Source of the DNA: Pararhodobacter sp.
Lineage (GTDB): Bacteria > Pseudomonadota > Alphaproteobacteria > Rhodobacterales > Rhodobacteraceae
DNA: 60,053 bases
Direction of reading: 5' to 3'
Assembly: GCA_020832665.1 (NCBI GenBank)
Contig: JAFIEG010000018.1
Coordinates: 1-60,053 of the forward strand
The position numbers and the translations under genes are program-made. Of this stretch, positions 1,374 through 17,402 are shown piece after piece (positions within the stretch are counted from its first letter, which is position 1; the number at the start of each line of letters is the position of its first letter). Below the pieces are notes generated by a model, which did not search any database, was not told the origin of the DNA, and saw only the letters and a list, made by a program, of their open reading frames with translations.

Positions 1374-1538
1374 AGCCGGACAGGGCGCGCAACTCCACCT
1401 TTGATCCGCTTGACGCTCAGTATTGCCCGTTGAACCAAGGGCGCAGGCGCCGGTTTGCGGCCCCGCCCCCTTGACGCTGGCCCCGCGAAGGCTCTTATCT
1501 CTGGGCAGCGAATTCAACATTTATGGAAAGGACATCCC

Positions 1539-2141
1539 ATGGCTTTCGAGCTTCCCGATCTTCCCTACGCCCATGATGCGCTGGCAGATCTTGGCATGAG
1601 CCGCGAGACGCTGGAATACCATCACGACATCCACCACAAGGCCTATGTCGATAACGGCAACAAGCTGATCGCCGGCACCGAATGGGAGGGCAAGAGCCTC
1701 GAGGACATCATTCGCGGCACCTATCAGGCCGGTGCGGTGGCGCAAAACGGCATCTTCAACAATGCCAGCCAGCACTGGAACCACAACCAGTTCTGGGAGT
1801 GGATGGCCCCGGGCGAGAACAAGGGCATGCCCGGCGCGCTGGAAAGCGCGCTGAACGAGGCGTTCGGTTCGGTCGACAAGTTCAAGGAAGCGTTCGCCGC
1901 CGCCGGGGCGGGCCAGTTCGGCTCGGGCTGGTGCTGGCTGGTCAAGGACAAGGACGGCGCACTGAAGGTCACCAAGACCGAAAACGGCGTTAACCCGCTG
2001 TGCTTTGGCCAGACCGCGCTTCTGGGCTGCGATGTGTGGGAACACAGCTATTACATCGACTTTCGCAACAAGCGCCCGGCCTATCTGACCAACTTCCTTG
2101 ACAGGCTGGTGAACTGGGAGGCCGTGGCCGCACGGCTTTGA
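1539..2141 (+). CDS. sodB: superoxide dismutase, iron type
   Basis: A 200-residue Fe/Mn superoxide dismutase, which converts superoxide to hydrogen peroxide and oxygen in the cytoplasm. The metal ligands are visible as H28 (in EYHHDIHH), H82 (in QHWNHNQFW), D165 and H169 (in CDVWEHSYY). The second-sphere glutamine lies in the NNASQHW segment (Q78), which is the iron-type position; manganese enzymes have it in the C-terminal half, where this protein has glycine (KTENGVNPL). The start ATG at 1539 has a GGAAAGGA ribosome site directly upstream. Two strong hairpins just after the stop codon probably terminate the transcript. Iron versus cambialistic use cannot be settled from sequence. Confidence 0.95.
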   Translation: MAFELPDLPYAHDALADLGMSRETLEYHHDIHHKAYVDNGNKLIAGTEWEGKSLEDIIRGTYQAGAVAQNGIFNNASQHWNHNQFWEWMAPGENKGMPGALESALNEAFGSVDKFKEAFAAAGAGQFGSGWCWLVKDKDGALKVTKTENGVNPLCFGQTALLGCDVWEHSYYIDFRNKRPAYLTNFLDRLVNWEAVAARL

Positions 2142-3868
2142 GCACAGCCCGGCCGGCAACGGCAAGCGTGCCCCCGGCTGCTGCCGGGGGTGCCTTGGCG
2201 CCACCGCTGCGCCTTACATGGGCAGCCCCCGCCGGGGCTGCCCTCTTTGCATTGCTGCTCTGGGGCGTGGCGCAGTCGCTGCCGCATCTGGCCTGGTTCT
2301 GGGTGGCGCTCATCTGGCTGGTGCTGGCCGCGCCGGCGGCGCTGGTGACGGCCTGGCTGGCGGCGCTGCGCGCGGGCCATGATGCGCGCCGCTGGAGCGA
2401 GCGGGTCAGGCGCAGCTTCTTTCGCGGCGGGGTGCGGGTGGCGCTGGCCGGCCTGGCAGGGCTTGCCATTGCGCCCCTCATGGTGCTGCGGCTGGTCGAG
2501 GCCGGCCCGCCAATGTGGCTGGCGGCGGCTGTGGCGCTGTTCGTACCGGTTGCGCTGCTGCCGCGCCTTGCGCGCCGGCTTTCGGGGGTGGGCCACGGGC
2601 CGCATGCGCTTTCCATCGCGGTGCGGCTGGCTGTGACGATCGCGGCGCTGGCGGCGCTGGCGGTGCATCTGGGGTTTTCCTGGCTGCTGGGCTTGCCGCA
2701 AGCCGCGCAGCCCGCGCCCGAAGCCGCCTCGGTGCTGGTGGGCGAGGCGCTGATCCTGGCGCGGCTCTGGGCCGGGCTCGAAGCCTTCGTACTGGGCATT
2801 GCCGCCGAGTTCGGCGATTGGGGCCGGCTGGCGGCGGCGCTGTTGTCGGCGCTGGGCATGCTGGCCGGTTTTGGCTCGCTGGCGCTGGCCGGGGTGGCGG
2901 CGGTGCTGGGCGCGGGCGAGCTGGGCCGGGGGCTGGCGCCGGCCTCGGATGCGCTGCCCGCACCGCGCCCGGGCGGTGCCGGGGTGGCGGCGGCGGTGTT
3001 GCTGGCGGTGTTGCTGGTATCAGGCACAGGGCTGGCAGAGCGCCGCCTGGCCGCCGCGCCGCCCGAGGCCCGCCCCACGGCGCAGCTGCAATCCGCCGCA
3101 GAGCTTATCGGCGATGCCCTTTACCGCGCCGGCACGCATGAGGCGCTGATGGCGCTGCGCGCCGAGGCGCTGGCCGAGGATGCCGCGCTGGCGCAATCGC
3201 TGGAGGCGACGCTGGAAGCGGGCTTCGATGCCATGGAGGCCAATGTCGATCGGTTTCTCGACGGATATTATTCGCTGGGCGCCGAATATCTGCGGCTGTT
3301 TCACTGGGCGACGCGGGGTTTGGAGGGGCATCTGCAGGCGCAGTTGGAAAGGGCGCTGCTGGCCGGCGCGCCGCATGCGGGTTTCGAGGCGTTGCTGGAA
3401 CAGGCGCGCGATGAAAGTGCCGAGCGCCACGCCGCCTTTGCCGCGCGCGAGGCGGCGTTGCTCGAGGCCAACCGCATCGAGGGCGCCAACCCGGCGCGGC
3501 TGCGCCTTGGCGCCAGTTTCCCGGCGCTGCCGGTTTTCGAGGCGCGTTTCGCGCGCGATCTCGAACAGGCGCAGATACGCTGGGGGCTGGCGGCCGGCAC
3601 CGGGCTGGCCAGCGCCGTGATCGCGGCGGGGGTGGCGCGGCGGCTGGCAGCGCGCGGCGTGCTGCGCGGCGCGGCGGTGGCGCTGTCGCGCGTGGCTGGG
3701 CTGGTGCTGGCCTTCGGTGTGGATTACGCGCTGTTGCGCATCGACGAGGCGCGAAACCGCGATGATTTCCGCGCCGAGATCATGGCCGAGATCGACGCGC
3801 TGCGCCGCGAGGCGCTGGACAGCCTGCCGCCGGTCGAGGGGCAGGCGGCCCTGGCGGGGGTGGATTGA
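2138..3868 (+). CDS. polytopic membrane protein of unknown function
   Basis: Up to 576 residues. The N-terminal ~300 residues contain several hydrophobic helices (for example ALFALLLWGV, FWVALIWLVLAAPAAL, AVALFVPVALLP, and a segment ending VLLAVLLVSGTGLAE). A long soluble, Glu/Ala-rich helical region follows (about residues 310-475), then one or two more membrane segments (AAGTGLASAVIAAGV, VALSRVAGLVLAFGV) and a charged tail. I do not recognise the family. The start is uncertain: the first possible codon is TTG at 2138, overlapping the sodB stop, but two hairpins lie between it and the first membrane helix. In-frame TTG at 2252 or GTG at 2267 are real alternatives. Codon use is strongly GC3-biased like the surrounding chromosome. 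Confidence 0.65.
   Translation: MSTARPATASVPPAAAGGALAPPLRLTWAAPAGAALFALLLWGVAQSLPHLAWFWVALIWLVLAAPAALVTAWLAALRAGHDARRWSERVRRSFFRGGVRVALAGLAGLAIAPLMVLRLVEAGPPMWLAAAVALFVPVALLPRLARRLSGVGHGPHALSIAVRLAVTIAALAALAVHLGFSWLLGLPQAAQPAPEAASVLVGEALILARLWAGLEAFVLGIAAEFGDWGRLAAALLSALGMLAGFGSLALAGVAAVLGAGELGRGLAPASDALPAPRPGGAGVAAAVLLAVLLVSGTGLAERRLAAAPPEARPTAQLQSAAELIGDALYRAGTHEALMALRAEALAEDAALAQSLEATLEAGFDAMEANVDRFLDGYYSLGAEYLRLFHWATRGLEGHLQAQLERALLAGAPHAGFEALLEQARDESAERHAAFAAREAALLEANRIEGANPARLRLGASFPALPVFEARFARDLEQAQIRWGLAAGTGLASAVIAAGVARRLAARGVLRGAAVALSRVAGLVLAFGVDYALLRIDEARNRDDFRAEIMAEIDALRREALDSLPPVEGQAALAGVD
2171..2190 (+). terminator. hairpin after sodB (first)
   Basis: A perfect 7-bp stem (CCCCCGG / CCGGGGG) with a six-base loop starts 30 bases after the sodB stop codon. 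There is no T-run behind it, so alone it is a weak terminator, but it is followed by a second, stronger hairpin. Confidence 0.4.
2220..2248 (+). terminator. likely intrinsic terminator of sodB
   Basis: A perfect 10-bp stem (GGGCAGCCCC / GGGGCTGCCC) with a four-base loop is followed directly by TCTTT. This is a good rho-independent terminator for sodB. It lies inside the first part of the next reading frame, which argues that the next gene starts downstream of 2248 or has its own promoter. Confidence 0.6.
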
Positions 3869-4440
3869 CGGCGGATCATGGCTTTTTGTCCGCGCCGGCG
3901 CCAGTGGCAACGAGTGCCGAGAAACCACAGCGGAGATTCTGGACAAGCTGTTGAAAAGAAGGCTCGCCCGAGCAGCTTCGAATTCCGTGCCTCAGAATTG
4001 CAGTCTTGAGCAAGGCTTTGCAGATAAGGCGTTTTCCTGCAAGCCGGTCCTGAACTGGCCTGTTTCAGGTCAATGCCTTGGGTATTTGATCCCATGTTTT
4101 GATGGCGCGCTTCAAGTTGTTGACTGCCCTTGCTTGCCCGCCCTGGTCACTGTTCTTGACGATCCAGTGGGCGAACTGTGCAATCGCCCGACCTTTTATG
4201 AAGCGGAGAACGGCTCATCCGCGGCGCCCAGCGACGATAGGGAACACCGCAAGCCATGACGATCAGGGCGTTTTGTATTTTACCTGACCCATTTTCCCTG
4301 CGTCACCACCTGCTCGTCTCTGACCTGCGATCAGGTTGACTGTTTCCCTCGGTTGCGGTGCTCATCGCCACAACGCAATCGAGTGGATAGCTTTCGGTTT
4401 CAGGCGCTTCGGACGGTGGCGCGTAGAACTGGACCTCGTC
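3869..4440. other. intergenic region with possible decayed coding remnant
   Basis: About 570 bases with no convincing intact gene, lower in GC than region 1. On the minus strand a frame reading RFIKGRAIAQFAHWIVKNSD and onwards (about 4200-4065) stays open for about 45 codons before a stop and looks protein-like, but it has no start and no family I recognise. It may be the worn edge of the accessory cluster that begins at 4441. Confidence 0.3.
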
Positions 4441-5829
4441 TCATGCTGACCTGCGCGCAAGCGGGTGATCGGATCTGGGCATACCCAGGACTTGCCGAAT
4501 CTGCCCTTTCGCGATTCTGAGCTTGTTGACCAGATCGATCCGCATTGCCTTGCCGCCGCTGACATCATTGACGTATTTCAGCGCCGCCGCCTCGTCTTGA
4601 AGTTGCGTTGTCAGCGAGGTGGGATCGTCGAAATTGTTGCAAAACGCATTGGCGATCTTTTGCTGGATCGTCGTGGTATCGGCCTTCCCGTCACTGCCAT
4701 ACTGTGCGATCAGCAAACGCTGCGCGGCGGGCGTGATCTTTTCCAGCAGCAGGTTGTTGAAGGCGTTGGTCGCCTTGCCGATACGCTTGAAATAAGTGTC
4801 GAACGTGGCGTTCATCCAGTCTTCGCTGAAGTCACCCTCGGGGTTTGCCGCCACGGCCTCCAGCAGCACCCGGATCTGGCGGTAACAGTTGTTCGCGCCC
4901 TGACCGCCTATCGGGTCCATTGCGTTGGCCGTGTCGCCCAGCGCCATCACCTTCGCGCCCGAGGGCAGGGTGCCGACCGGCTTCTTGACGCAAGGGCGCA
5001 CGCTGCCCCTGAGCCACCCCTTTTCGTCGGCCAGTTCGGCATCCTTGATCCAGTCATAATCCCACGGGATATGCTGCCTGAACAATTCCTTGACCCGGGC
5101 AATCACCTTTTCGCCGGTGTCGCAATCGCCGAACTTGTCGAAGGCGCCGCCGGGCCTGGCCTCGAACAGTGCGTTCCAGCACTGATAGCCGTCCTTGTGC
5201 CAGTAGGGGATCGAGAATTGCTCGCCCTCGGTGGCGAAGAAATTGAACTTGATGGCGTGAACAAAGGGAATGCCATCCTGGCGACGATCCATGCGCACGT
5301 TGCGAAAGACGAACATGGTCAGATTGCGCTGGGCCTTGTCATAATCGCTGCGCGACTCGTCCACCTCGAACAATTGCCCGATCGCAGCCTTTCCCGCAGC
5401 GACCAGTGTCAGATCGGCCTCGGCGGCGATCTCCTCCAACTGCGGAATGTCAATGTTTCCGACAACGACCTTGCCGCCCAGCGCTTCGAAATCATGCGTC
5501 CAGCGATGCGATTGCGCGCGAACGTCGATGGCCAGCGCCATCCGGTCAAAGCGCCCCATAAGATCGATGAGCTGCCGGCCCAGCTTTGGGCTGAATGTCA
5601 GGTGAATCCCGTGGATCGGGGTCGAGTCTTCCCAGTGGTTCACCCCCAGTTCACGCTCCAGATCAAGCGAGCTTGAAAAACGGCAGGCGGTGCCGGTGGG
5701 CGGGACCTTGGTCAGCCAGTCGTCGGCACTGAGCGCCGAATAGATCGTGACATCGTGCCCCATCTTGCGAAGCCCGATGCCGGCGACAAGACCGGTCACC
5801 CCCGATCCTATGATCGCGATCTTGCTCAT
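4441..5829 (-). CDS. StyA-like FAD-dependent monooxygenase
   Basis: A 462-residue single-component-type flavoprotein monooxygenase of the styrene monooxygenase (StyA) group. Visible features are the N-terminal FAD dinucleotide fold (GSGVTGLVAG, residues 8-17), the conserved segment TLVAAGKAAIGQLFE (about 141-155), and the FAD-binding GDTANAMDPIGGQGAN motif at about 298-313. StyA enzymes epoxidise styrene and also oxidise indole, using FADH2 supplied by a separate flavin reductase. No styB-type reductase is adjacent; the reductase at 13971 in the same cluster could serve. The gene is the last of the minus-strand side of the cluster, with an AraC regulator directly upstream and a pair of TATCCGGATA-like sites about 105-140 bases before its start. 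The substrate is an inference. Confidence 0.8.
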   Translation of the reverse strand: MSKIAIIGSGVTGLVAGIGLRKMGHDVTIYSALSADDWLTKVPPTGTACRFSSSLDLERELGVNHWEDSTPIHGIHLTFSPKLGRQLIDLMGRFDRMALAIDVRAQSHRWTHDFEALGGKVVVGNIDIPQLEEIAAEADLTLVAAGKAAIGQLFEVDESRSDYDKAQRNLTMFVFRNVRMDRRQDGIPFVHAIKFNFFATEGEQFSIPYWHKDGYQCWNALFEARPGGAFDKFGDCDTGEKVIARVKELFRQHIPWDYDWIKDAELADEKGWLRGSVRPCVKKPVGTLPSGAKVMALGDTANAMDPIGGQGANNCYRQIRVLLEAVAANPEGDFSEDWMNATFDTYFKRIGKATNAFNNLLLEKITPAAQRLLIAQYGSDGKADTTTIQQKIANAFCNNFDDPTSLTTQLQDEAAALKYVNDVSGGKAMRIDLVNKLRIAKGQIRQVLGMPRSDHPLARRSA

Positions 5830-5933
5830 GCGTCATCTCCCTGTCGTGCGGTCGTGTCAGCGTCAGTGCGCCAATCACACTGGCGCGCCGACCGCTCCGT
5901 GCGTTCATGGTCTGACAGGGACCGTCTGCCGAT

Positions 5934-5969
5934 CTATCCGTATAATGGCGTTGCTATCCGGATATTGCG
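5934..5969. promoter_or_regulatory. paired operator-like sites upstream of StyA-like gene
   Basis: Two similar sequences, CTATCCGTATAATGGCG (5934-5950) and CTATCCGGATATTGCG (5954-5969), repeat with a 20-base period. The second contains the perfect palindrome TATCCGGATA. The same pair type occurs before the SDR gene (7160-7196). The spacing is typical for AraC-family half-sites on one face of the helix, and an AraC regulator gene lies next door. Confidence 0.55.
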
Positions 5970-5995
5970 TGAACCGCCCGCTGGCGCGGCTGAGA

Positions 5996-7021
5996 TCACG
6001 ATGTCCGCTGGCGTGCGCGCCTGAGGGTTTGCGACGGAGCTTCTCCGAAGGCTTCGGCGTAATCAGCCGCGAACCTGCCCAGATGCTGAAACCCCCAGCA
6101 CATGGCAACATTGGCTACGGTTGCGCAGGGATCTGGGTTTTCCAGCGCCGCGCGCGCCCTATGCAGGCGTTGCTGGCGGACGAAGCGCATCGGCGTTACG
6201 CCTCTGAACTGTCTGAAGCCGTCAAACAGCGAGCGCGGCGAACCGCCGGAAACGGCGATCAGATCGGCGATCGAGATCGGTTGGTCCAGATGTTCTCGGA
6301 TGTATTCCTCGGCCCGATGCACAGTTGCGGGGCAAGCCGTGGACAAGCGTCCAGCCGCAATCGGCACGGTGTAGTCACTGGGCTGCAGGAACAGCAGCGA
6401 ATAGAGAAACGTCTGTTCGGCGCTGGCAGAAATCAGGTCGTATCCCGGGCCTTTCTCGGTGCGGGCAAGGCTTGCCAGCACGCCCACGGCATGACGAAGG
6501 GCGGCGTGTCGGTCGCTTGACCAGTCCAAATGCATGCGGAAATCAGGCGCGCGGTTGATCGTGGTGCCAAGATGGGTCTCAAGGCATCTGACCAGCTTGC
6601 GCCGGTCGATGCGCACGATCAGTTGACGGGCATTGTCCGACCAACATGTGCGAAACTCGCGTTCGGCCGGAATAAGAACCGCCGCGCCTGGCCCGACTTC
6701 CACCTGTTCCTTGCCGCTGATGACACTTACTTCGCCTTCGATCGGAACAACCATCAGGTAATAGTCGCGTAGCGGATCGGGCAGGATCGTCACCTCGCGC
6801 CCGTAATCGAAATAGCAAAGCGACAGCGCGTCGAAGCCACAATGACTGATGGTCACGGGGCGAAAGCTCTGGCGCGAGGGCGCGTTCAGGCGATGATCCA
6901 CGAAGATACGCGAGACCTGCGCGCGGGCTTCATCCAGATCGCCGGTGTCCACCAGAAGGTTGCGGGCCACAATGTCGCAGCCAGGCGTGATCATTGCCGG
7001 ATCGAGATGCGCTTCCAGCAT
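5996..7021 (-). CDS. AraC-family transcriptional regulator
   Basis: A 341-residue regulator. The N-terminal ~210 residues look like the AraC-binding-like ligand domain (AraC_binding_2 type: SHCGFDALSLCYFDYGREV ... DPLRDYYLMVVPIEGEV ... PGAAVLIPAEREFRTCWS). The C-terminal ~100 residues hold two helix-turn-helix units (ISIADLIAVSGGSPRSLFDGF and VANVAMCWGFQHLGRFAADY). It sits divergently from the SDR gene and directly upstream of the StyA-like gene, and paired TATCCGGATA-like sites flank it on both sides, so it probably controls both units in response to a cluster substrate. The ATG at 7021 gives a full-length domain. The effector is unknown. Confidence 0.85.
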   Translation of the reverse strand: MLEAHLDPAMITPGCDIVARNLLVDTGDLDEARAQVSRIFVDHRLNAPSRQSFRPVTISHCGFDALSLCYFDYGREVTILPDPLRDYYLMVVPIEGEVSVISGKEQVEVGPGAAVLIPAEREFRTCWSDNARQLIVRIDRRKLVRCLETHLGTTINRAPDFRMHLDWSSDRHAALRHAVGVLASLARTEKGPGYDLISASAEQTFLYSLLFLQPSDYTVPIAAGRLSTACPATVHRAEEYIREHLDQPISIADLIAVSGGSPRSLFDGFRQFRGVTPMRFVRQQRLHRARAALENPDPCATVANVAMCWGFQHLGRFAADYAEAFGEAPSQTLRRARQRTS

Positions 7022-7159
7022 GCGTTACCTCCGGTCTGTGGCGCAGCACCCGCAAGGCAAAGCGACCTGATGCAAACGGCCACGACCCAATGAGGCTACA
7101 GCCAACAGGAAATATTTCAAGTGCAAAGCAAAGGCGTTCGAAGCGGACATGAGGAGTGA

Positions 7160-7196
7160 CTATCCGGATCATGTCGCGCACTGTCCGGATAACGCG
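7160..7196. promoter_or_regulatory. paired operator-like sites upstream of SDR gene
   Basis: CTATCCGGATCATGTCGCG (7160-7178) and CTGTCCGGATAACGCG (7181-7196) repeat with a 21-base period in the gap between the divergent AraC and SDR genes. They match the pair upstream of the StyA-like gene. TGTCGCG and CGCGACA also form an inverted repeat here. Confidence 0.55.
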
Positions 7197-7302
7197 ACAA
7201 ACCCCAGGCCCGGGCAGCACCTGCAGCACAAAGGCTTTGTGCGCCTGAAAGGACGCTCCAGAATGCGCGAACAAGTATGCGTCAGGACAGGAGGGCATTC
7301 TC

Positions 7303-8091
7303 ATGAAACAATTCACCGACAAGGTCGCCATCGTCACCGGCGCATCCACGCTGATCGGCGCGGGAGTCGTGCGCGCCTTTGCCGAGGCGGGCGCCAGCGT
7401 GGTCATGGCCGATATCAACGAGGCCGACGGCGAGAAGATCGCCCGTGAGCTCGGCGCCAGCGTGGTGTTCCGTCTGACCGATGTCACCAATGATGAAGAC
7501 ATCGACGCCTGCATCGCCTTCGCGGAGGAACATTTTGGAGGTGTGGACTATCATGTGAACCTGGCCAGCACTTATCTGGACAACGGCATCAACACCTCGC
7601 GTCAGGACTGGCTGACCTCGCTCAATGTCAATCTGGTCAGTGCGATGGTCTTCGCCGACAAGGTCGCGCCGGTAATTGCCCAACGTGGTGGCGGGGCGAT
7701 CGTCAATTTTGCCAGCATCGCAGGCAAGGTCGCGCAACCGGGCCGGATGACCTATTCCGCCGCCAAGGCGGCGATGCTTCAGGTCACCAGGAACGCAGCG
7801 ATGCAGTTGCGCGAGCACAACATCCGCGTCAACTCGGTCTCGCCGGGCTGGACATGGTCTAACATCATGGTCCAGCTCACAGAAAACAAACGTGAAAAGG
7901 CCGATAGCGTCGCCAGACCCTTTCACATCCTCGAGCGAACCGGCGATCCTGCTGAAGTTGCTGCGGCGGTGCTGTTCCTTTGCTCGGACCAAGCGAGCTT
8001 CATCACCGGAACGGATATCGCGGTCGATGGGGGATACACCGCGATTGGGCCTGAAGGGATGGTGGATGCGGTGAGCATGCTTGCGGAGTGA
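7303..8091 (+). CDS. short-chain dehydrogenase/reductase (SDR)
   Basis: A 262-residue classical SDR, an NAD(P)-dependent alcohol or dihydrodiol dehydrogenase. The cofactor motif is TGASTLIGAG at residues 13-22 (the usual GIG has become LIG). The catalytic set is N110, S138, Y151 and K155 (MTYSAAK). The NNAG strand motif is replaced by VNLAS (85-89). D37 after the second strand (ADINEADG) suggests NAD preference. In iif-type indole clusters an SDR oxidises indole-2,3-dihydrodiol, which would fit here, but the substrate is inferred from neighbours only. The gene stands alone on the plus strand, divergent from the AraC gene and about 100 bases downstream of the paired operator-like sites. Confidence 0.9.
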   Translation: MKQFTDKVAIVTGASTLIGAGVVRAFAEAGASVVMADINEADGEKIARELGASVVFRLTDVTNDEDIDACIAFAEEHFGGVDYHVNLASTYLDNGINTSRQDWLTSLNVNLVSAMVFADKVAPVIAQRGGGAIVNFASIAGKVAQPGRMTYSAAKAAMLQVTRNAAMQLREHNIRVNSVSPGWTWSNIMVQLTENKREKADSVARPFHILERTGDPAEVAAAVLFLCSDQASFITGTDIAVDGGYTAIGPEGMVDAVSMLAE

Positions 8092-8220
8092 TCATCATCG
8101 CACGCTTGGAATGTGCGCAATCATTTCCGGTATATGAGCAGTAGTTATGGGGCATGGAGCAGCCTGATGGCATGCGACCGTTCGGTTCTGTTGCGCCGGC
8201 CGTGCATGGCAATCTGCCCA

Positions 8221-8859
8221 TCACGAGGGCTGTCCCGCCAGCAATACCGCTGTCTCATGAACCATCGGCTTGAATCCAAGACGCAGCACTTCGACGATCG
8301 GCTTGGGTGTCAGCAGCCCGACCGTGCCGGTTACCGATGTTTCTCGCACCGTGTAGCCGTCAAAGCCCCAGTTCATCTGCCGCCCATTCCAGATCAGCAC
8401 GGCTTGATTGCCATCTGCGAAGATTGTGCCGTCGGGTAGATCCGCGACCTGAGCGCTGTGAACCGGCTTGCGCCCCTTCCGATCGATCCGGTTTGCGTGC
8501 AGCGTTCTGTCGATGCTCTTTGGGAGTGTCCGGCCAGGCTCGGGGTCACCATGCGCCCGGCGCCAGTATTCCGTGAACTCCCGGTAACGTGAGCGCCTGC
8601 ATTCGGCACAGGGCCGGTGACCGGCGGCGAATGCGGTGGCTTCATCGAGGAAGAAGAGCTCGGTATATCTGCCGGGCGCCATGATCTCTCGCCGCCGCTC
8701 CTTGAAGTTGAGCGTGCAGGTGACCCAGTTCTGGTGCACATGGGTCCGGGTGATATTTCGTTCGCCGTCATGCAGGATGCCCCTGTTTCCCATAAGGCTG
8801 CCTTTCGCGGCCACTGCGTGAAAACAGCCGAAGGGATCGACACGGTTCTGGTGAGGCAT
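8221..8859 (-). CDS. conserved hypothetical protein with HRPCAECR motif
   Basis: A 212-residue protein. The first two thirds resemble a conserved hypothetical family that I recall from alphaproteobacteria (NRVDPFG near the start, MAPGRYTELFFLDEATAFAAGHRPCAECRR at about 60-89, quoted here in parts only as MAPGRYTELFFLDE and HRPCAECR). The Cys-x-x-Cys-Arg arrangement recalls metal-binding segments of the Ada-N type, but no function can be assigned. The ATG at 8859 is preferred because family similarity begins there. The gene lies between the SDR and the second AraC gene and has no obvious link to the catabolic pathway. Confidence 0.7.
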   Translation of the reverse strand: MPHQNRVDPFGCFHAVAAKGSLMGNRGILHDGERNITRTHVHQNWVTCTLNFKERRREIMAPGRYTELFFLDEATAFAAGHRPCAECRRSRYREFTEYWRRAHGDPEPGRTLPKSIDRTLHANRIDRKGRKPVHSAQVADLPDGTIFADGNQAVLIWNGRQMNWGFDGYTVRETSVTGTVGLLTPKPIVEVLRLGFKPMVHETAVLLAGQPS

Positions 8860-8869
8860 GCCGGGCTCC

Positions 8870-9157
8870 TTACATCTGCGCCTGGCGCTGCGCACGCTTG
8901 AAGAAGTGCCGCGTCGCCTGCTCGCGGGCGTCCTTGTCGGTCATGACGATATTGCGCATCTCGTTATCTTGCTGGAACTGCTTGACCATCCCATGGAACT
9001 GGATGCTTGAGAAGGCATTGCCGCATGAGCATTGGCCGGCCCCTGTTCCGTCCCGGCGCTGGTGATGTGAGCGCCCCGACAGCGTCGATGTGCCAAGGTG
9101 GGTGAGTGAGAATCCACAATGGAAGGCGGTCACATCGTCAAGCCCAATCAAGGACAT
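8870..9157 (-). CDS. small hypothetical protein
   Basis: A possible 95-residue protein ending 10 bases before the start of the downstream hypothetical gene, so the two could be co-transcribed. It contains a CSCGN segment near residues 43-47 and a charged, helical C-terminus (TDKDAREQATRHFFKRAQ). No family is recognised. It could be a real small gene or a chance frame; the tight spacing favours a gene. Confidence 0.4.
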   Translation of the reverse strand: MSLIGLDDVTAFHCGFSLTHLGTSTLSGRSHHQRRDGTGAGQCSCGNAFSSIQFHGMVKQFQQDNEMRNIVMTDKDAREQATRHFFKRAQRQAQM

Positions 9158-9179
9158 GGCCAAGTCCCCGATCGCTGCA

Positions 9180-10253
9180 CTATTTCCTGTATCGTTTCGT
9201 TATCGACGGAAGTTCGCCGAAGCGTCGACGATAAAGCGCCGAGAATCGCCCAACATTATTGAATCCCCACTTTACAGCGATATCCGTGATTGATTCCGAA
9301 CTGTTATTATCAAGCAAATCCATACGGGCGCGATCAAGCCGGCAATTCCTCAAAACCTCCATTGGAGTGGTCTGTCGAAAACGACGAAAACTTTCATACA
9401 GGCTTCGAACACTTGTTCCCGACAGCTTTGCTAGGTCCGAGACAGAAATATCAGACTCGGCGTGGCTGCGAATATACTCTTCGGCGATCCGCACGGATCG
9501 TGGAGCAATTGCTTTTGAAGGAGCAAGTAATCTGGCAGAAAAATTGTGGGGAAACCGCATCAGAAGAAGAGACATGACAGTTTCTTCAAGCTGCCTTCTC
9601 CCAATCGGGCTTCTGAAAAATGAATACCCCTGTTCAATTTCCTTGCTGGCGAATTGAAGAATGCGGTGATATTCGGCGCTGACATCCGACAGGGCATCGG
9701 GATCCAGCAGAAATTCGATTGGTTCATTCACCTCATCATGCAGCAGATGGGATAGCTGCTGAGTCAGGGCGGCACGCTCGATTTTGGTGACGAACTGACC
9801 GCATTCGGGCGTCCAGCGCATGCGCAGGCGCAGCGTTGGCGAACTGATCGCCGTCAACCCAGGCGCCACCGCCACTTCGTTGCGCCCGATCATGGTGCTG
9901 CAGGGGCCACCCTGCGCCGTATGAACCATGAACCAGCGTTCCGGTTCTCCGGCATCGATTTCGACAGCTTCCCCGTAGGTTACATAGCTGTAGGTTATCC
10001 GGTCCAGCTCGGCGAGTGTTTGAAGGAACGACAGTTTCCGCCCACGCCCAGTGTAGTCGATCGTGTGCCGGCAGAATACCTTGCCGACCCGTTCACAGGC
10101 CTCGTCGATGTCGCTTGTCGAAAAGTGAAGGTGTTGCGACAGGGGCAGCGCCGCGTCCGCATCGCGGGGCCTTGTGGGTACGAAGCGACTTTTCTGCACG
10201 ATCGGAACACTCCCTGCACAGAATGGATAGACCGCGAAACGCAACGCGCGCAT
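9180..10253 (-). CDS. second AraC-family transcriptional regulator
   Basis: A 357-residue regulator of the same architecture as the one at 5996 but clearly diverged. The N-terminal region holds the ligand-binding-like domain (ELDRITYSYVTYGEAVEID, APGLTAISSPTLRLRM). The C-terminus has two helix-turn-helix units (ISVSDLAKLSGTSVRSLYESF and ITDIAVKWGFNNVGRFSALY). It is divergent from the cupin-led operon and probably controls it. GC and codon use are lower than in region 1. The start is uncertain, because the first ~35 residues are not conserved-looking and a later start is possible. Confidence 0.85.
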   Translation of the reverse strand: MRALRFAVYPFCAGSVPIVQKSRFVPTRPRDADAALPLSQHLHFSTSDIDEACERVGKVFCRHTIDYTGRGRKLSFLQTLAELDRITYSYVTYGEAVEIDAGEPERWFMVHTAQGGPCSTMIGRNEVAVAPGLTAISSPTLRLRMRWTPECGQFVTKIERAALTQQLSHLLHDEVNEPIEFLLDPDALSDVSAEYHRILQFASKEIEQGYSFFRSPIGRRQLEETVMSLLLMRFPHNFSARLLAPSKAIAPRSVRIAEEYIRSHAESDISVSDLAKLSGTSVRSLYESFRRFRQTTPMEVLRNCRLDRARMDLLDNNSSESITDIAVKWGFNNVGRFSALYRRRFGELPSITKRYRK

Positions 10254-10323
10254 CTTTTTCGAGAACAGTCACGGATAAATACTGCCTGTCAAGAAAAATG
10301 AATCTGATCGGTATGTCTTGATT

Positions 10324-10338
10324 ATCTCGCACCGAGAT
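10324..10338. promoter_or_regulatory. inverted repeat in the AraC/cupin divergent promoter region
   Basis: ATCTCG-CAC-CGAGAT is a perfect 6-3-6 inverted repeat located between the divergent AraC (starts 10253) and cupin (starts 10419) genes. It may be an operator. The TATCCGGATA element of the other two promoters is not present here. Confidence 0.35.
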
Positions 10339-10418
10339 TTTCAGGAGGCGGAAAATGCTGCCTTAAAATCAGGCCGAATAAGAGTAACTGCACAGAGAAA
10401 TCAGAAGGGAGATACGAC

Positions 10419-10847
10419 ATGACGTTCAGTAAAGGTCTAATGCCAGCTGACAAAAGCTTTCGGGATCAGGCGTGGAATATTCTGGGCGAGCCTTACAGGC
10501 CCATTCAGATGACGCCCTCATCCTTGCTCTTTCATGCCGAGTTCGCACCCGGCAGCGGCGTTCCCGCCCATATCCACGAAACGCAGGACGAGATCTTGCA
10601 CATTCTTGAGGGGGCAATGCAATTCGAGATGGAAGGGCAAACCATCATCGCAGGCAAGGGGGACACGGTGACCCTGCCGATGGGCATTGCGCATGCGCTG
10701 TTCAACCGCTCATCCGCCCGTGCCGAAGCGCTGGTTGTCGTTTCACCAACTGGAAAGTTCCATGACTACATGGCGGCCATCTCGGGCCTGACCGACCCGA
10801 CAGAAGTGATCCGCCTTGGTGCGGAACACGAGATCACATTCGTCTGA
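10419..10847 (+). CDS. cupin-domain protein
   Basis: A 142-residue single-domain cupin. Motif 1 is seen as HIHETQDEILHILEG with H51, H53 and E58, and motif 2 contains H92 (MGIAHALFN), so the usual metal site appears intact. Small cupins of this type act as dioxygenases, isomerases or binding proteins. Here it is the first gene of an operon that continues with the SnoaL-like protein, monooxygenase, esterase and flavin reductase, so it probably acts on a pathway intermediate. The ATG has an AAGGGAGA ribosome site upstream. The exact reaction is unknown. Confidence 0.85.
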   Translation: MTFSKGLMPADKSFRDQAWNILGEPYRPIQMTPSSLLFHAEFAPGSGVPAHIHETQDEILHILEGAMQFEMEGQTIIAGKGDTVTLPMGIAHALFNRSSARAEALVVVSPTGKFHDYMAAISGLTDPTEVIRLGAEHEITFV

Positions 10848-10953
10848 GCGATCCGGCTCAAGGATCATCCCAAGCAACAAGACAGACCCTGGCGCGCGGC
10901 GATTGGCTGCTGTGCCCGGGCTCTGGCTGGCCGAAAACCAACAGGAGAAGAAC

Positions 10954-11355
10954 ATGAGTGTGAAGAACGTAACCGAGGCTTTCTGGAAGGCCCATAACGC
11001 GGGCGATCACGCCGCGCTGAAAGAGGTCATGGCCCAGGATGTCACCTGGACGGTTGTGGGCGGCACCTGCCCTATCGCCAAGACCTATGAAGGTTGGGAC
11101 GGTTTTTTTGGCGAGCTTCTGGGCGGGCTTGGCGAAGCGTTCAAGCCGGGCACCCTGAAGATGCACCTCAAGGGGCTCTATGTCGACGAGGAACAAGGCA
11201 CTGGCGTTCTGCATCTTGAGGAGACGGCCACGCTGCAAAACGGAAACGAGATCGCGCTGGAGATTGTCGATGTGATCACGGTGCGCGACGGCAAGATTGT
11301 CGCCGTGCGCGAGGTCATGGACCTTGCCGCCGTGAACAAAGCGTTCGGCTTTTGA
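10954..11355 (+). CDS. SnoaL-like/NTF2-fold protein
   Basis: A 133-residue protein of the SnoaL-like (NTF2 fold) superfamily: an N-terminal helix (VTEAFWKAHNAGDHAALKEVM) followed by the cone-shaped beta sheet, with conserved-looking DVTWTV and DVITVRDGKIVAVREVMD segments. Members include cofactor-free oxygenases, cyclases and isomerases. In iif (indole) and iac (indole-acetate) clusters a protein of this class sits next to the flavin oxygenase and acts on an oxidised indole, which is the basis for the pathway guess. The ATG at 10954 follows an AGGAGAAG ribosome site. It is 11 bases upstream of the monooxygenase gene, clearly in the same operon. Confidence 0.85.
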   Translation: MSVKNVTEAFWKAHNAGDHAALKEVMAQDVTWTVVGGTCPIAKTYEGWDGFFGELLGGLGEAFKPGTLKMHLKGLYVDEEQGTGVLHLEETATLQNGNEIALEIVDVITVRDGKIVAVREVMDLAAVNKAFGF

Positions 11356-11366
11356 GGGAGAGTGCC

Positions 11367-12560
11367 ATGACGATTGCCTTTCGCCACTCCGAGATCGCAA
11401 CGTTGATGGCCCGGGTTCATGAGATCGGCCCGGTGCTGCGTGACAATGCTGCCCAGGCCGACCGTGACCGCCGCGTGCCAGAAGCCACTATCGCGGCGCT
11501 GGAGCAGGCCGGGGTGTTTGGCATCAACACGCTGGCCGCCAATGGCGGGCACGAGACCGGCGCGCGGGCGTTGCTGGATGTGACCACCGCGATCGGCACC
11601 TATTGCCCCAACGCAGCCTGGATCACCGTCATTTCAAGCGTATCGTCCTTGTTGCCGATGCGCTTTCCGGCCTCGGTTCAGGATCGGATATTCAAGGATC
11701 GCAAGCCCGTGCGCATGGCTTCGGTCATTGTCAGCGCTGGAAACAGCATCGCTTTGCGTGATGGCGATGGGTACCGCATCACCGGCGAATGGCCTTTTGG
11801 TTCGAATATACTCAATTCGGAATGGGCAATCGGCGTTGTGCAGATCAAGCAGAGCGCCGATGCCGAACCGCAGCCCGGTTTCATGGTGATGCACCGCGAT
11901 CAATTCACCATCAAGGATACCTGGTTCACGATCGGCATGCGCGGCACCGGCAGCAACAACTTTCTAGCGCAAGACCAATGGGTACCCGCCGATCAGGTGA
12001 TCGGCGCCGGTGTGCTGGTGGGGCCCGGGCAGGAAAGCGCGGCCGAGGCGCATTTCCTGCAACGCCTTACCCCGCTGTCGATGTTTCCCACAGTCATCCT
12101 GTCCGGCCCGCTGGGGGCGGCAAAGGCCGCCCTGTCGCTGACCGCGCAGGCGGCGGAAAAGCGTGGCATCACCTATTCGAAATACCACCCACAGAGCTCG
12201 TCGGGGGTTTTCGTGCATGGGGTTGGCGCGGCGCGAGCCAAGATCGAAGCCGCCGAAATGAGCCTGCAGCGCGCGGCTGACATGATTGACGCGGCCGCTG
12301 CAGGGACTGTGCCGCTGTCACCGACCGAGCGCGCGCATATCCGCAATCTTTGTGCCCATGCCGCGCAGAATTTGGCCGACGCCATGAACGATATTGCCTG
12401 GCTACACGGCACGGCCACCTTTTCCGAGGCAAATCCGATCGGCCGGTTGTGGCGCGATGTGAACACCGGCGTGCGTCATGCCATCGCCGCCAGCCCGCTG
12501 GGTTATGAGATCGGCGGCGCGGGGTATCTGGGTATCGAGCCACCCTCTCCCCTGGTGTGA
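11367..12560 (+). CDS. acyl-CoA-dehydrogenase-fold flavin-dependent monooxygenase
   Basis: A 397-residue oxygenase component of a two-component flavin monooxygenase with the acyl-CoA dehydrogenase fold (relatives HsaA, HpaB-type D1/C2, IacA, IifC). Visible segments are the N-terminal helical domain (VPEATIAALEQAGVFGI), the central beta domain (GYRITGEWPFGSNILNSEWA, TWFTIGMRGTGSNNF) and the C-terminal four-helix bundle with WLHGTATFSEANPIGRLWRD, typical of the monooxygenase branch rather than true dehydrogenases. It should use reduced flavin from the reductase at 13971 to hydroxylate an aromatic or indole-type ring. The ATG at 11367 has GAGGGAG upstream. It overlaps nothing but is tightly spaced (4 bases) to the esterase gene. 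Confidence 0.85.
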   Translation: MTIAFRHSEIATLMARVHEIGPVLRDNAAQADRDRRVPEATIAALEQAGVFGINTLAANGGHETGARALLDVTTAIGTYCPNAAWITVISSVSSLLPMRFPASVQDRIFKDRKPVRMASVIVSAGNSIALRDGDGYRITGEWPFGSNILNSEWAIGVVQIKQSADAEPQPGFMVMHRDQFTIKDTWFTIGMRGTGSNNFLAQDQWVPADQVIGAGVLVGPGQESAAEAHFLQRLTPLSMFPTVILSGPLGAAKAALSLTAQAAEKRGITYSKYHPQSSSGVFVHGVGAARAKIEAAEMSLQRAADMIDAAAAGTVPLSPTERAHIRNLCAHAAQNLADAMNDIAWLHGTATFSEANPIGRLWRDVNTGVRHAIAASPLGYEIGGAGYLGIEPPSPLV

Positions 12561-12564
12561 GGCC

Positions 12565-13971
12565 ATGACCAAGAAAGAAAGCCAAGCCCGGGGTGGGATT
12601 GTCACCCCACCCCGGGCCGGGTTGCGCAGAGATGGGCTGCAAGGGCAACTGCGTGACGGTGTCGAATGCTGGTATGGCCTTCGTTATGGTGCCCTGTCCG
12701 ATTCCGCCAACCCGCGCTCGGCTCTGGTTCCCTGCACGGGTCAGATGGCGGTGGATGATCTGACAGAGGTGCCGGTCTTCGCGCAATTGCCCAGCAGGCT
12801 GGAAAGCCTCATGGGCCCCGGGATCAGGGACAACCCGCAAGACGTGAATGCGTTTTACCTGAATGTCTGGGCGCCCGCCGGGGCCGATGGCCTGCCGGTT
12901 CTTGTCTTTCTTCATGGCGGCGCCTGGGCAAGCGGCGGCGGGTCAGCACGCTGGTATCGCGGCGCGCAGCTGGCAAAGGAAGGGGTGGTGGTTGTCACCC
13001 TGAGTTATCGTCTGGGACCGGCGGGGCATTTTGCTGATACCCCCGATGACGGCCTGCACCGCCCGATGGGTGACTTGCTTGCCGCGCTGCGCTGGGTTCA
13101 GGACCGGATCGCCGGTTTCGGCGGCGACCCCGCCCGCGTTACCCTCGCAGGCCAGTCGGCGGGTGCCTGGTATGGCTGGGCCCTGGCGGGTTATCCGCCG
13201 GCAAGGGGGCTTTTCGACCGTGCGGCACTTCTGAGCGTCCCAGCGATCACCCCTTGGACACGCGAAGAACGCCAGGCCATTGCCCTGACAGCCGAGCGGC
13301 ATGCGACGGCGCTTGCCCGGAATGGAACCGACATGACGCAAGCCTGGCTTCTGGCCGGTGTCCGCGCGCTGTCCGAGCGGCCACATCTGCCCGGCACCAT
13401 ACCGCCCATGTATTTGCCAACCTGGCCAGATGCCCCGGCCCCCGAAGTTGCGGAGAGGCATGTATCGGCAGTCTATGTGCGCATGACGGCGCATGAGATG
13501 TCGGCCTTTCTGCCTTCGCAGACCACGCCGGAACAGGAAGCTGGCCTTCTTTCCGCCCTGCGCGAAGGTACCCCGGCCGATTTGCCGCTTGCAAATGGCG
13601 CGCCGGATTGGTCCGCGGCGCGCGCAGAGATTGTGGCGCGCGCGACCTGGCAGGCTTTCGGCTGCTTTGCAAATGAGATCGGCAAGGCAGTGCAGGGCCG
13701 GTGCGCACTGGTCCAGCGGGGTTTTTCGGCGCTTTCAGGCGGGCCTGACAGCCCGGGCGCCACTCACTGCGTTGATCTGCCGTTTCAGTTCGGAAACCTG
13801 GAAGACTGGCATGACGCACCCATGCTGAACGGTTGGGACATTATGCAGTTCGATACCCTGAGCCGGCAAGTCCGCAAGGACCTTGCAGATTTCGCAAAGG
13901 GGCATGCACAAGCCTCGTGGGAAAGGCATGGCGAAGGATTCGGCCCCAAACAGCAAGAGGATATCGCGTGA
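12565..13971 (+). CDS. type B carboxylesterase
   Basis: A 468-residue alpha/beta hydrolase of the carboxylesterase type B family. The oxyanion-hole motif is HGGAW (117-121) and the nucleophile serine is S198 in GQSAG. The segment QDVNAFYLNVWAP (92-104) is the counterpart of the usual EDCLYLN motif but lacks its Glu and Cys. It hydrolyses carboxyl esters, amides or lactones; the substrate is unknown. Its position between an oxygenase and its likely flavin reductase, with a 4-base gap upstream and a stop/start overlap downstream, makes it a true member of the operon. It could open a lactone or ester made by the monooxygenase. Confidence 0.85.
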   Translation: MTKKESQARGGIVTPPRAGLRRDGLQGQLRDGVECWYGLRYGALSDSANPRSALVPCTGQMAVDDLTEVPVFAQLPSRLESLMGPGIRDNPQDVNAFYLNVWAPAGADGLPVLVFLHGGAWASGGGSARWYRGAQLAKEGVVVVTLSYRLGPAGHFADTPDDGLHRPMGDLLAALRWVQDRIAGFGGDPARVTLAGQSAGAWYGWALAGYPPARGLFDRAALLSVPAITPWTREERQAIALTAERHATALARNGTDMTQAWLLAGVRALSERPHLPGTIPPMYLPTWPDAPAPEVAERHVSAVYVRMTAHEMSAFLPSQTTPEQEAGLLSALREGTPADLPLANGAPDWSAARAEIVARATWQAFGCFANEIGKAVQGRCALVQRGFSALSGGPDSPGATHCVDLPFQFGNLEDWHDAPMLNGWDIMQFDTLSRQVRKDLADFAKGHAQASWERHGEGFGPKQQEDIA

Positions 13972-14492
13972 TGGCGTTGGCGAATGATCTGATCGCCGCG
14001 TTTTGCCAGGCGTTCAGGATGCACCCCATGGGTGTTTCCGTTATCTCGGCCATGACCGAAGATGGCCCGCAGGCATTGACCGTAAGTTCCTTGATCTCGA
14101 TAAGCGCCACGCCGCCACTCGTCGCGTTTTCCTTGTCCGGGCAATCGGTCCGTTCAGCGGCGATACTGACGGCTGAAACGGTCGTTGTGCATTTCCCTCG
14201 GCCTGCCGATCAGCAACTTGCGCAACTCTGCGCGACACCTGGTGCCAATCGTTTTGACGGCTCGCATCGATGGGAACTTCTGGAAACCGGAGAACCGAGA
14301 TTCACCGAGGTAGCAACCTGGTTTCGCGCAAGCCTGGAAAGGCAACTGCCGCTCGAAAACGCTACCCTGGTGATAGCCAGATTGCGGGAAGGGGCAGCCC
14401 CTGATTCAGAGTGCTCGGCAGGCGAGCCATCGCTGGTCTATGTGAACAGAGGTTGGCACCATGTAGCCGTCGATCATTCCCGGCATCCATAG
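13971..14492 (+). CDS. flavin reductase (HpaC-like)
   Basis: A 173-residue protein of the flavin reductase domain family (HpaC/IacG/IifD type). Family segments are MGVSVISAMTEDGPQALTVSSLISIS (about 20-45), PPLVAFSLS and the late GWHHVAV end. It reduces free FMN or FAD with NAD(P)H for use by a partner monooxygenase. The ATG overlaps the esterase stop codon (TGATG), indicating translational coupling. It is the only flavin reductase in the window, so it may supply both the monooxygenase at 11367 and the StyA-like enzyme at 4441. It ends the operon. Confidence 0.85.
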   Translation: MALANDLIAAFCQAFRMHPMGVSVISAMTEDGPQALTVSSLISISATPPLVAFSLSGQSVRSAAILTAETVVVHFPRPADQQLAQLCATPGANRFDGSHRWELLETGEPRFTEVATWFRASLERQLPLENATLVIARLREGAAPDSECSAGEPSLVYVNRGWHHVAVDHSRHP

Positions 14493-14647
14493 ATGCTGAT
14501 TTTTTTCAAAGCCGGATCCTACGCGAAAGGTTGCAGTCGAGAACTGCGGCTTCTGGGCACAGAACCGGAACCGAAGACGCGCTCCGATCCCGCCGCCAAA
14601 CATTGCCATCTGATCACTGCGCCATTGCGGTACGTCTGAAAAGACTG

Positions 14648-14881
14648 CCTTCACAGGCGAGATCAGGTGTGTTCCGGCGATTCGCCAGGCAAACCAAGGT
14701 TCCCGATGACATCAGGATGCTGGACACCAGGGCGGGCGCGATCACCGAGGCGAGGACGAAACGCGCGTCACACTACGACCTGCGCGATGCCGCTGGCCAC
14801 CGCCAGCTTTCCACCACCGATCGCTACGCCAGAGACAGATCGGCGGGCAGCAGCAAGGTGCTGAAACTCCGCCGCTCGTGA
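14648..14881 (+). pseudogene. tyrosine recombinase (integrase) C-terminal remnant
   Basis: A frame of about 75 codons resembles the C-terminus of phage-type tyrosine integrases: an MLDTRAGAITEA segment, an AAGH box (DAAGHRQLSTTDRY) containing the catalytic His and Tyr, and a KVLKLRR end. The catalytic arm with the first arginine and the whole N-terminal region are missing, so it is a broken gene. It lies between the catabolic operon and the mobilization genes and may be a scar of the element that brought either region. Confidence 0.6.
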
Positions 14882-14938
14882 ACGAAGAAGCAACCTCGTT
14901 CCAACCGCCACACAGGGTTTCGGGCTAAATCGTTGAAA

Positions 14939-14947
14939 AGATGGCGC
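14939..14947. other. candidate left attachment-site core (weak)
   Basis: AGATGGCGC here is identical to 39852-39860, which covers the CCA end of the tRNA-Arg gene at the right end of the element. Only nine bases match, so this may be chance, but the position just left of the mobilization genes is where attL is expected. Confidence 0.25.
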
Positions 14948-15007
14948 ACCTCGACGGAGAAAGTTCGAACACTCTGTTTGAGGCACTAGCCGAGTGGGAA
15001 CGTCATC

Positions 15008-15041
15008 TCGCATCAATAGACGCTAAGCGTCTTAGGTGCGA
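15008..15041. promoter_or_regulatory. nested inverted repeats before mobC (operator or oriT candidate)
   Basis: AGACGC-TAA-GCGTCT (15018-15032) is a perfect inverted repeat. It is enclosed by a second, nearly perfect pair, TCGCAT (15008) and GTGCGA (15036), and overlapped by CTAAG-CGT-CTTAG. The dyad covers the ribosome site of mobC. It fits an autoregulatory site of the relaxosome or the oriT stem that a relaxase recognises. Confidence 0.45.
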
Positions 15042-15043
15042 TC

Positions 15044-15466
15044 ATGACGAATTCGCGCCATAATTTCAATAATATAGCCAAGGATGAGGCGGCGAAGCCG
15101 AAGTATCCGCCGCCGTTCTCGCTGCGCCTGACCTATGAGGAGCGGGCGCGGCTGGATGCCGAACGGGGCGATCAGCCCCTCGGCGCATATATCCGCGAGC
15201 GGTTGTTTGGCGATGATGCTGCACCGCGAAAGCGGCGCGGCAACAGCCCCATTCAGGACAAGGAAGCCCTTGGCCGTGTGATGGGCGCGCTCGGACAGTC
15301 GCGCCTGTCCGCAAATCTGAATCAGCTCGCCAAGGCGGTGAACACGGGCTCCCTGCCCGTGACACCGGAAACCGAGGCGGAGCTGAAGCAAGCCTGCCGC
15401 GAAGTCTCTGAAATCCGCGACGTGCTTATGCGGGCGCTCGGCAAGAACCCGGAGCGCGCGCCATGA
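15044..15466 (+). CDS. mobC: MobC-like relaxosome accessory protein
   Basis: A 140-residue plasmid mobilization relaxosome protein. The N-terminal half has the ribbon-helix-helix-like start (PFSLRLTYEERARLD) and the C-terminal half the MobC signature LGQSRLSANLNQLAKAVNTG (about 91-110). MobC proteins bind oriT and help open the DNA for the relaxase. The stop codon overlaps the relaxase start by four bases, the typical mobCA arrangement. A strong palindrome covers its translation start region. Confidence 0.85.
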   Translation: MTNSRHNFNNIAKDEAAKPKYPPPFSLRLTYEERARLDAERGDQPLGAYIRERLFGDDAAPRKRRGNSPIQDKEALGRVMGALGQSRLSANLNQLAKAVNTGSLPVTPETEAELKQACREVSEIRDVLMRALGKNPERAP

Positions 15467-16791: not shown

Positions 16792-16813
16792 CAACAAGCA
16801 GAAAGGAAAAGCT

Positions 16814-17302: not shown

Positions 17303-17377
17303 GGTAGTTCACTGCGAGTTTGCGCCTTACTGTATGTGTGAGACGTTACGCGACAACGAAGGCCGCAAGCACTCTTC

Positions 17378-17402
17378 TAGCCCGCGTCGAAGACGCGGGC
17401 TA
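17378..17402 (+). terminator. hairpin ending the mob operon
   Basis: A perfect 11-bp stem (TAGCCCGCGTC / GACGCGGGCTA) with a GAA loop stands 75 bases after the last mob-operon gene and before the convergent lipoprotein gene. There is only a short T stretch behind it (AGTTTCCC). Confidence 0.5.

Follow-up and report, generated by a model that had tools for sequence, protein, structure and literature searches.

Does the interval at positions 4441–14492 of a 60,053-nucleotide stretch of Pararhodobacter sp. DNA (assembly GCA_020832665.1, contig JAFIEG010000018.1; hereafter, the window) encode a single pathway for indole? A first-pass annotation had read it as one indole-type catabolic cluster of nine genes. 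We find that the interval is two separately regulated modules, each with an AraC-family gene and a divergent intergenic region, and not one indole operon. Module A (4441–8091) comprises a StyA-like oxygenase (oxygenase A), the regulator AraC1 and a short-chain dehydrogenase/reductase (SDR). Module B (9180–14492) comprises AraC2 and, divergent from it, genes for a cupin, a SnoaL protein, an oxygenase of the acyl-CoA-dehydrogenase (ACAD) fold (oxygenase B), an esterase and a flavin reductase. The reading that we prefer, at a probability of about 0.42, is that these are two adjacent catabolic modules, carried as island cargo at a tRNA-Arg gene, which would act on an indole-type aromatic.

Two adjacent modules with separate regulation

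All nine genes lie where the first-pass annotation had placed them, with the folds it had assigned (Pfam), but BLAST of the window proteins against fetched loci resolves them into two conserved units. The features are as follows.

4441–5829, minus strand: StyA-like oxygenase (module A), 462 residues, a group E FAD monooxygenase (Pfam Smoa_sbd, 3e-20)
5996–7021, minus strand: AraC1, AraC-family regulator (module A; Pfam AraC_binding_2 and HTH_18)
7022–7302, no strand: divergent intergenic region between AraC1 and SDR, likely a promoter region (by position; aligned with congeners G001 and G002)
7303–8091, plus strand: IifB-like SDR (module A; Pfam, tblastn)
8221–8895, minus strand: tenth open reading frame (ORF), between the two halves, 224 residues, with a CAECRR motif
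9180–10253, minus strand: AraC2, AraC-family regulator (module B), divergent from the operon (Pfam AraC_binding_2 and HTH)
10254–10418, no strand: divergent intergenic region between AraC2 and the operon
10419–10847, plus strand: single-domain cupin (module B; Pfam Cupin_2)
10954–11355, plus strand: SnoaL/NTF2-like protein (module B; Pfam SnoaL_2)
11352 (TTG) or 11367 (ATG) to 12560, plus strand: XiaF-like, ACAD-fold group D flavin monooxygenase (module B; Pfam)
12565–13971, plus strand: type-B carboxylesterase (module B; Pfam COesterase; the ATG at 12565 is the better start)
13971–14492, plus strand: flavin reductase (module B; Pfam Flavin_Reduct; the ATG at 13971 is the better start)

The tenth ORF has no Pfam or NCBIfam match at 1e-3. 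Within module B the esterase stop overlaps the flavin reductase start (TGATG), as does the SnoaL stop the oxygenase B start if TTG is used; the alternative ATG lies 11 bases downstream.

Each module is conserved as a unit

In BLAST comparisons that left out matches below 60 bits and SDR matches below 35% identity, the StyA-like, AraC1 and SDR genes remain together in congeners G001 (92, 82 and 91% identity) and G002 (83, 60 and 82%). The six genes of module B stand in the same order in four further genomes (loci L010, L011, L013 and L016), and the module is complete in five alphaproteobacterial genomes: that of the window, a Pararhodobacter metagenome-assembled genome (L010, the same locus as contig C16 of G001), Stappia indica, Stappia taiwanensis and Pseudochelatococcus lubricantis (L016). 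Because these six genes share their order in four further genomes, the nine-gene locus is more than a product of chance.

Outside this set, Shinella keeps the cupin, SnoaL, oxygenase and esterase genes, with a distant flavin reductase (28% identity) after them and a divergent AraC-family gene before them. Three actinobacterial loci keep oxygenase and esterase and have flavin reductases nearby; SnoaL is matched in two of the three (L014 and L015), and a cupin from each of L012 and L014 entered the alignment. At L057, a second copy in Stappia, the oxygenase and esterase genes are accompanied by those for a flavin reductase, a Dabb protein, a PaaX regulator and a metabolite/H+ symporter. In L012 (Arthrobacter M4), a PaaX-type regulator lies near the module B genes, which are flanked by two genes for aromatic amino acid lyases (PF00221; 7152–8639 and 16329–17756) and by an ABC transporter resembling, by eye, a betaine importer; the substrate there could derive from an aromatic amino acid betaine.

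A single scan of genome contigs with oxygenase B gave eight loci from 26 stretches, seven of them full-length relatives. In whole genomes, its own counted, it was found in 2 of 18 in the genus, 1 of 292 in the order and 1 of 385 in the class; five of 398 in the phylum passed 1e-45, own included, and the best of the others scored 271 bits versus 734 (the order, class and phylum searches scored at most 4–6 candidates per genome). Of 60 relatives, its own genome counted, 10 have a match to the StyA-like gene at 1e-20, and besides its own genome only G001 and G002 have it at 83% identity or more. A search for near-identical DNA in plasmids gave no match. The first-pass annotation had suggested looking for its nine-gene set in other genomes: each unit is conserved, and G001 is the one congener among the searched genomes in which both have close copies; 13.5 kb separates its StyA gene from its ACAD-fold oxygenase gene. 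In the literature searched, as judged by its listings, we found no description of a cupin–SnoaL–oxygenase–esterase gene set, and the titles found for Pararhodobacter and indole named no such cluster.

Oxygenase B groups with an indole-ring hydroxylase

Which known enzyme is oxygenase B closest to? Among solved structures XiaF is the nearest (271 bits), ahead of HsaA-type enzymes at about 100 bits. XiaF joins the module B and actinobacterial-type oxygenases with support of 95/99 in a tree of 26 rows and 100/99 in one of 24 rows, which drops two long rows (own_C29 and own_C137). Trees with SulX (p 0.004) or HsaA/2or0 (p 0.0001) beside oxygenase B in XiaF's place were rejected. This grouping with an indole-ring hydroxylase, apart from steroid-type HsaA, supports the indole-type reading of the first-pass annotation. 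An HsaA-type steroid enzyme or a SulX-type sulfonamide enzyme is ruled out by the tree tests; the NCBIfam HsaA model scores 156 bits against a cut-off of 450.

XiaF hydroxylates the indole ring, and indole was the sole substrate transformed among six aromatics tried (PMC5481743; here and below, papers are cited for the parts of each that we drew on). It sits in a larger clade of indigo-forming oxygenases whose natural substrates are unknown, one being limonene-induced, and IacA is named among additional groups in the same paper's tree (PMC5481743). Around distant oxygenases we saw no iac context in six plasmid and four genome loci (by ORF lists, L064 by annotation) and no Rieske motif in the ORF lists of nine loci, although these absences are weak since the crude ORF caller missed genes such as the Rieske alpha gene of L080.

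The HxH...E...H motif of the cupin, which we take to be its metal site, is intact, and its residues are kept in all seven aligned sequences, two of them actinobacterial; the predicted cupin model is poor (predicted local distance difference test, pLDDT, 66) and its structural matches were not used. The esterase motifs GQSAG and HCxDLPF are both present in eight of eight aligned sequences. The flavin reductase is 55–78% identical to three other module B reductases and 24% to a reductase at an IifD position. For the SnoaL protein the predicted model (pLDDT 91.5) gave NTF2-like structural matches, with limonene-epoxide-hydrolase entries among many. The catalytic triad of limonene epoxide hydrolase is Arg-x-Asp...Asp; the last Asp is kept (D123), and Arg-x-Asp is seemingly absent by eye. 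Similar to this setting, xiaG beside xiaF encodes a limonene-epoxide-hydrolase homologue (PMC5481743), a fold class that recurs among the matches of the predicted SnoaL model. Unlike the XiaF system, module B has the look of a catabolic operon and includes genes for a cupin and an esterase.

Oxygenase A departs from the indole-monooxygenase fingerprint

The best Protein Data Bank matches of oxygenase A are 7z4x, which we take to be Variovorax IndA1, and 9lrq, at 234 bits each (residues 1–420 and 1–408), with styrene-type entries at 79–84 bits; its C-terminus is about 40 residues longer than those of indole monooxygenases. A styrene monooxygenase identity is rejected: the StyA model scores 157 bits against a cut-off of 550, and the protein lies outside the styrene clade. 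Indole monooxygenases carry the fingerprint S46-Q48-M50-V/I73-I76-A96 and styrene monooxygenases N46-V48-H50-Y73-H76-S96, and skatole monooxygenases have neither (PMC13101512). We compared five places (46, 48, 50, 73 and 76) in the published numbering, matched to 9lrq by an inferred one-residue offset. Isoleucine at both 73 and 76, and thus two of the five indole places, is kept in oxygenase A and its G001 and G002 counterparts, which have G, A and R at 46, 48 and 50; the indole-type rows keep S and Q in 12 of 12 and M in 10 of 12. Given these departures, the first-pass argument from indole oxidation by StyA enzymes cannot be applied to oxygenase A as it stands.

In trees, oxygenase A joins L008 and Agrobacterium vitis with support of 98/94, within a wider group with Nocardia (99/99) in the first tree; the second leaves out Nocardia_L068. 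Joining it to the canonical indole group instead was rejected (p 0.0006). L008 is an Acinetobacter plasmid locus that is ska-like by gene order, with a Rieske alpha gene three genes before StyA. In the skatole degrader Acinetobacter piscicola p38 the genes are numbered 1684 and 1687 (PMC11434297), gene1687 being a putative skatole monooxygenase (PMC13101512), and we call L008 ska-like because its spacing fits these numbers. The nearest non-congener StyA by tree path, on an A. vitis plasmid (L007), lies beside nucleoside hydrolases, a dihydropyrimidinase and a ribokinase, neighbours that hint at quite different substrates on this branch.

The window SDR is 50% identical to the SDR adjoining StyA/IifC of Acinetobacter baumannii (L009) and 51–61% identical to SDRs adjoining other StyA genes in its own genome and congeners. 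A tree of the SDRs was left aside: good support reached 2 of its 12 inner branches, and one outgroup row had an excessive length (a wrongly framed C76 row of 42 residues had been removed for its length). Elsewhere in the window genome, contig C75 (L037) carries a canonical indole-monooxygenase-type StyA–SDR–reductase set, 4.5 kb from a 3-hydroxyanthranilate dioxygenase gene and, by eye, near a TRAP transporter. Two further StyA loci were seen. On an Alloyangia pacifica plasmid (L006) an iif-type AraC–SDR–StyA–reductase set lies near a gene annotated as salicylyl-CoA 5-hydroxylase, possibly part of a 2-aminobenzoyl-CoA route. Arthrobacter M4 (L058) has two tandem StyA-like genes behind AraC–SDR, and adjacent ORFs resemble, by eye, a cyclase, an FAD oxidoreductase and a thiamine pyrophosphate (TPP) enzyme.

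Comparison with the iif, skatole and iac clusters

How do the modules relate to known indole clusters? The first-pass annotation had listed an ACAD-fold oxygenase as part of iif clusters and the StyA-like gene as an addition from no described cluster. That mapping was inverted because the iif oxygenase is the StyA-like protein itself: iif of A. baumannii encodes the dienelactone hydrolase (DLH) IifA, the SDR IifB, the StyA-like oxygenase IifC, the flavin reductase IifD, the MetA porin IifE and the AraC regulator IifR (PMC4577076, PMC7225977), and the C-terminal domain of IifA has the SnoaL fold (PMC7225977). It is thus the StyA-like gene that corresponds to iif, and the ACAD-fold gene belongs to the Iac/XiaF type.

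Module A is, judged from its sequences, a diverged relative of the iif core. Like iif/ind operons it has a StyA-like oxygenase, an SDR and an AraC regulator with AraC_binding_2, and AraC1 is 30% identical to the AraC protein at the IifR place of L009. Unlike in iif, the StyA gene lies behind AraC1 on the same strand, and its product is 34% identical to that of L009, with three fingerprint places changed. No IifA-type DLH protein or MetA porin is among the interval genes; the L009 protein does match DLH, whereas none of the ten interval proteins does, SnoaL and an esterase of another family being separate proteins here. No IifD-type reductase is adjacent, and that of module B is not IifD-like. 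Likeness to the skatole monooxygenase system (ska, SkaMO) extends to the branching of oxygenase A with L008, in a tree without SkaA and with long branches; identity to L008 is only 34%, and Rieske components are missing from the interval.

In iac clusters the regulator is a MarR protein, unlike the AraC regulators of the window. As the first-pass annotation had noted for the Rieske oxygenase, none of the ten interval proteins has a Rieske oxygenase match (Pfam, NCBIfam), nor is there an amidase match; the four Ring_hydroxyl_A matches of the window genome are all on other contigs. Common to iac and the window are an ACAD-fold oxygenase, an SDR, a SnoaL-fold protein and a flavin reductase (PMC7225977). 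We claim membership in neither the iif, the iac nor the skatole group.

On another contig of the same genome (C76, 20000–39999; L080) we observed a TPP/POR oxidoreductase pair (indolepyruvate-oxidoreductase-like by eye) and Rieske alpha and beta genes, with a CoA ligase, a thiolase-like gene and a PF04199 cyclase close by, a gene set that we take to resemble iad-type indole-acetate degradation.

A neighbouring indole-type cluster and a possibly shared reductase

In Pseudochelatococcus, only 1.3 kb separates a StyA gene from module B, whose reductase ends at 13170 of L016 and is followed by a MetA-type porin, a canonical StyA (14451–15665), an SDR, an AraC gene, a cyclase and an FAD oxidoreductase. 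Apart from its reductase, this StyA set is made up like the Providencia GS indole cluster (PMC9871250) and like a locus annotated in Azospirillum. Searched with eight reductase queries, L016 and positions 1–20000 of the window each yielded no reductase but that of module B, and L082 and the surroundings of the StyA genes of G001 (L034) and G002 (L036) yielded none. In Pseudochelatococcus, therefore, both oxygenases may be served by the module B reductase, and the first-pass proposal of one reductase for two oxygenases is plausible. With only 31% identity between the StyA of Pseudochelatococcus and that of the window, the pairing there is a second, separate one. Of the first-pass interpretation, the indole-type reading stays the best available, through the XiaF grouping and this neighbouring cluster; the mapping onto iif was inverted.

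The modules lie on a mobilisable island

G+C content in 2-kb steps is 0.47–0.65 across about 4–40 kb, against 0.63–0.72 outside. The island (4000–39950) encodes MobC and a relaxase adjoining the cluster, a type IV coupling protein and a serine recombinase, as well as an ArdC antirestriction protein, a type ISP restriction-modification enzyme and an ABC-3C defence protein. A tRNA-Arg gene occupies 39855–39931, and the serine recombinase ORF reads into it. DNA homology to congener G010 starts at 39854, and that to three other congeners about 220 bases further on, inside the next gene. The left flank (1–4440) has no match in four fetched congener stretches, and no direct repeat of at least 11 bases marks island ends between 3500–4500 and 39500–40150. 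The cluster is best read, from this gene content and composition, as cargo of a mobilisable island at the tRNA-Arg gene.

A model for the two modules and its alternatives

What might the two modules do? From gene content, folds, gene order, conservation and tree positions we infer that AraC2 controls a two-component oxygenation operon. The flavin reductase would supply reduced flavin, and oxygenase B would use it to hydroxylate an aromatic ring, most likely one of indole type. The unstable product may then be converted and hydrolysed, on the way to a simple aromatic acid, by the SnoaL protein, the metal-binding cupin and the esterase. Module A would be a diverged iif-type trio under AraC1, in which oxygenase A may epoxidise the C2–C3 bond of another indole, probably one substituted at position 3, and the SDR may oxidise the resulting diol as IifB does for indole dihydrodiol. 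Since it has no reductase gene of its own, module A probably depends for reduced flavin on module B or on some other reductase of the cell.

Several observations weigh against this indole-type model. (i) The XiaF docking residue Phe123, kept in four actinobacterial-type rows, is Ile in the six alphaproteobacterial module B rows, and neither Ser121 (kept in the XiaF group) nor His371 is diagnostic, because the former also occurs in HsaA and 2or0 and the latter in all 26 rows. (ii) The three fingerprint departures of oxygenase A count likewise, and its tree placement is weakened by long branches and by the tested group having been named after the first tree was seen. (iii) XiaF left indole-3-acetate untouched (PMC5481743), which by analogy speaks against a 3-substituted substrate for oxygenase B. 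(iv) The intergenic regions of modules A and B have no common 9-mer, and the window genome holds other reductases, one of them 55% identical to that of module B. (v) G002 has module A without module B; no StyA homologue was found at 1e-20 in the two Stappia genomes, Arthrobacter C2 and the one searched Shinella record; and in Arthrobacter M4 and Paeniglutamicibacter the StyA homologue is on contigs other than that of module B, which argues against a fixed link.

Could module B instead degrade a phenolic ester or a similar non-indole aromatic, with module A an unrelated neighbour? The esterase would then free an acid, oxygenase B would hydroxylate it para to a group already present, and ring opening would fall to a gentisate-type dioxygenase. 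We consider this unlikely, although it survives better than the other alternatives. ACAD-fold enzymes of phenols and steroids are common, and in Shinella module B runs, in one direction, into gentisate-dioxygenase-like, FAH-family hydrolase, nitrilase-family and arylmalonate-decarboxylase-family genes. Dioxygenase–FAH pairs also occur away from module B in the window genome (contig C96, 75 and 67% identity to those of Shinella) and in G001 (contig C58, 73 and 76%). However, oxygenase B groups with XiaF and away from HsaA and SulX, and the Shinella dioxygenase itself falls below the NCBIfam cut-off for gentisate 1,2-dioxygenase (TIGR02272, 301.8 versus 442 bits). A dioxygenase homologue at 1e-15 is present in four of eight module B genomes, with only 33–35% identity in Pseudochelatococcus and Arthrobacter M4, and at this threshold none was found in either Stappia, Arthrobacter C2 or Paeniglutamicibacter.

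Alternatively, the modules may be unrelated cargo that landed side by side on the island, as their separate regulators and intergenic regions would allow. Each occurs without the other; they are separable, since in the two Stappia genomes module B is present and no StyA homologue was found at 1e-20. Yet a StyA-type gene recurs close to module B in Pseudochelatococcus and within 13.5 kb of the oxygenase in G001, and we regard such a coincidence as improbable. The first-pass proposal that indole itself is the substrate of both oxygenases, with the one flavin reductase supplying them, is very improbable: each family includes indole oxidisers and no reductase gene other than that of module B was found beside StyA, but oxygenase A departs from the indole fingerprint and branches outside the canonical indole monooxygenases, and the genome already has the canonical set on C75.

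A long shot is that module B is the missing gentisate-type branch of aerobic indole breakdown, in which oxygenase B would hydroxylate anthranilate or a related indole-ring product to a gentisate-type compound whose ring would be opened by a gentisate-dioxygenase-like enzyme, encoded in the same operon in Shinella and elsewhere in the window genome, or by the module's own cupin. A 2018 review describes gentisate as seen among the intermediates of indole degradation, its genes then not known (PMC6221969).

What does the locus mean for these enzyme families? The analysis separates two oxygenase families that the first reading had confused. Oxygenase A directs attention to a branch of StyA-like proteins that deviates from the indole fingerprint, and module B to a conserved cupin–SnoaL–oxygenase–esterase core that spans two phyla. 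If module B serves indole breakdown, it would offer candidate genes for the gentisate route that the review lists as open (PMC6221969).

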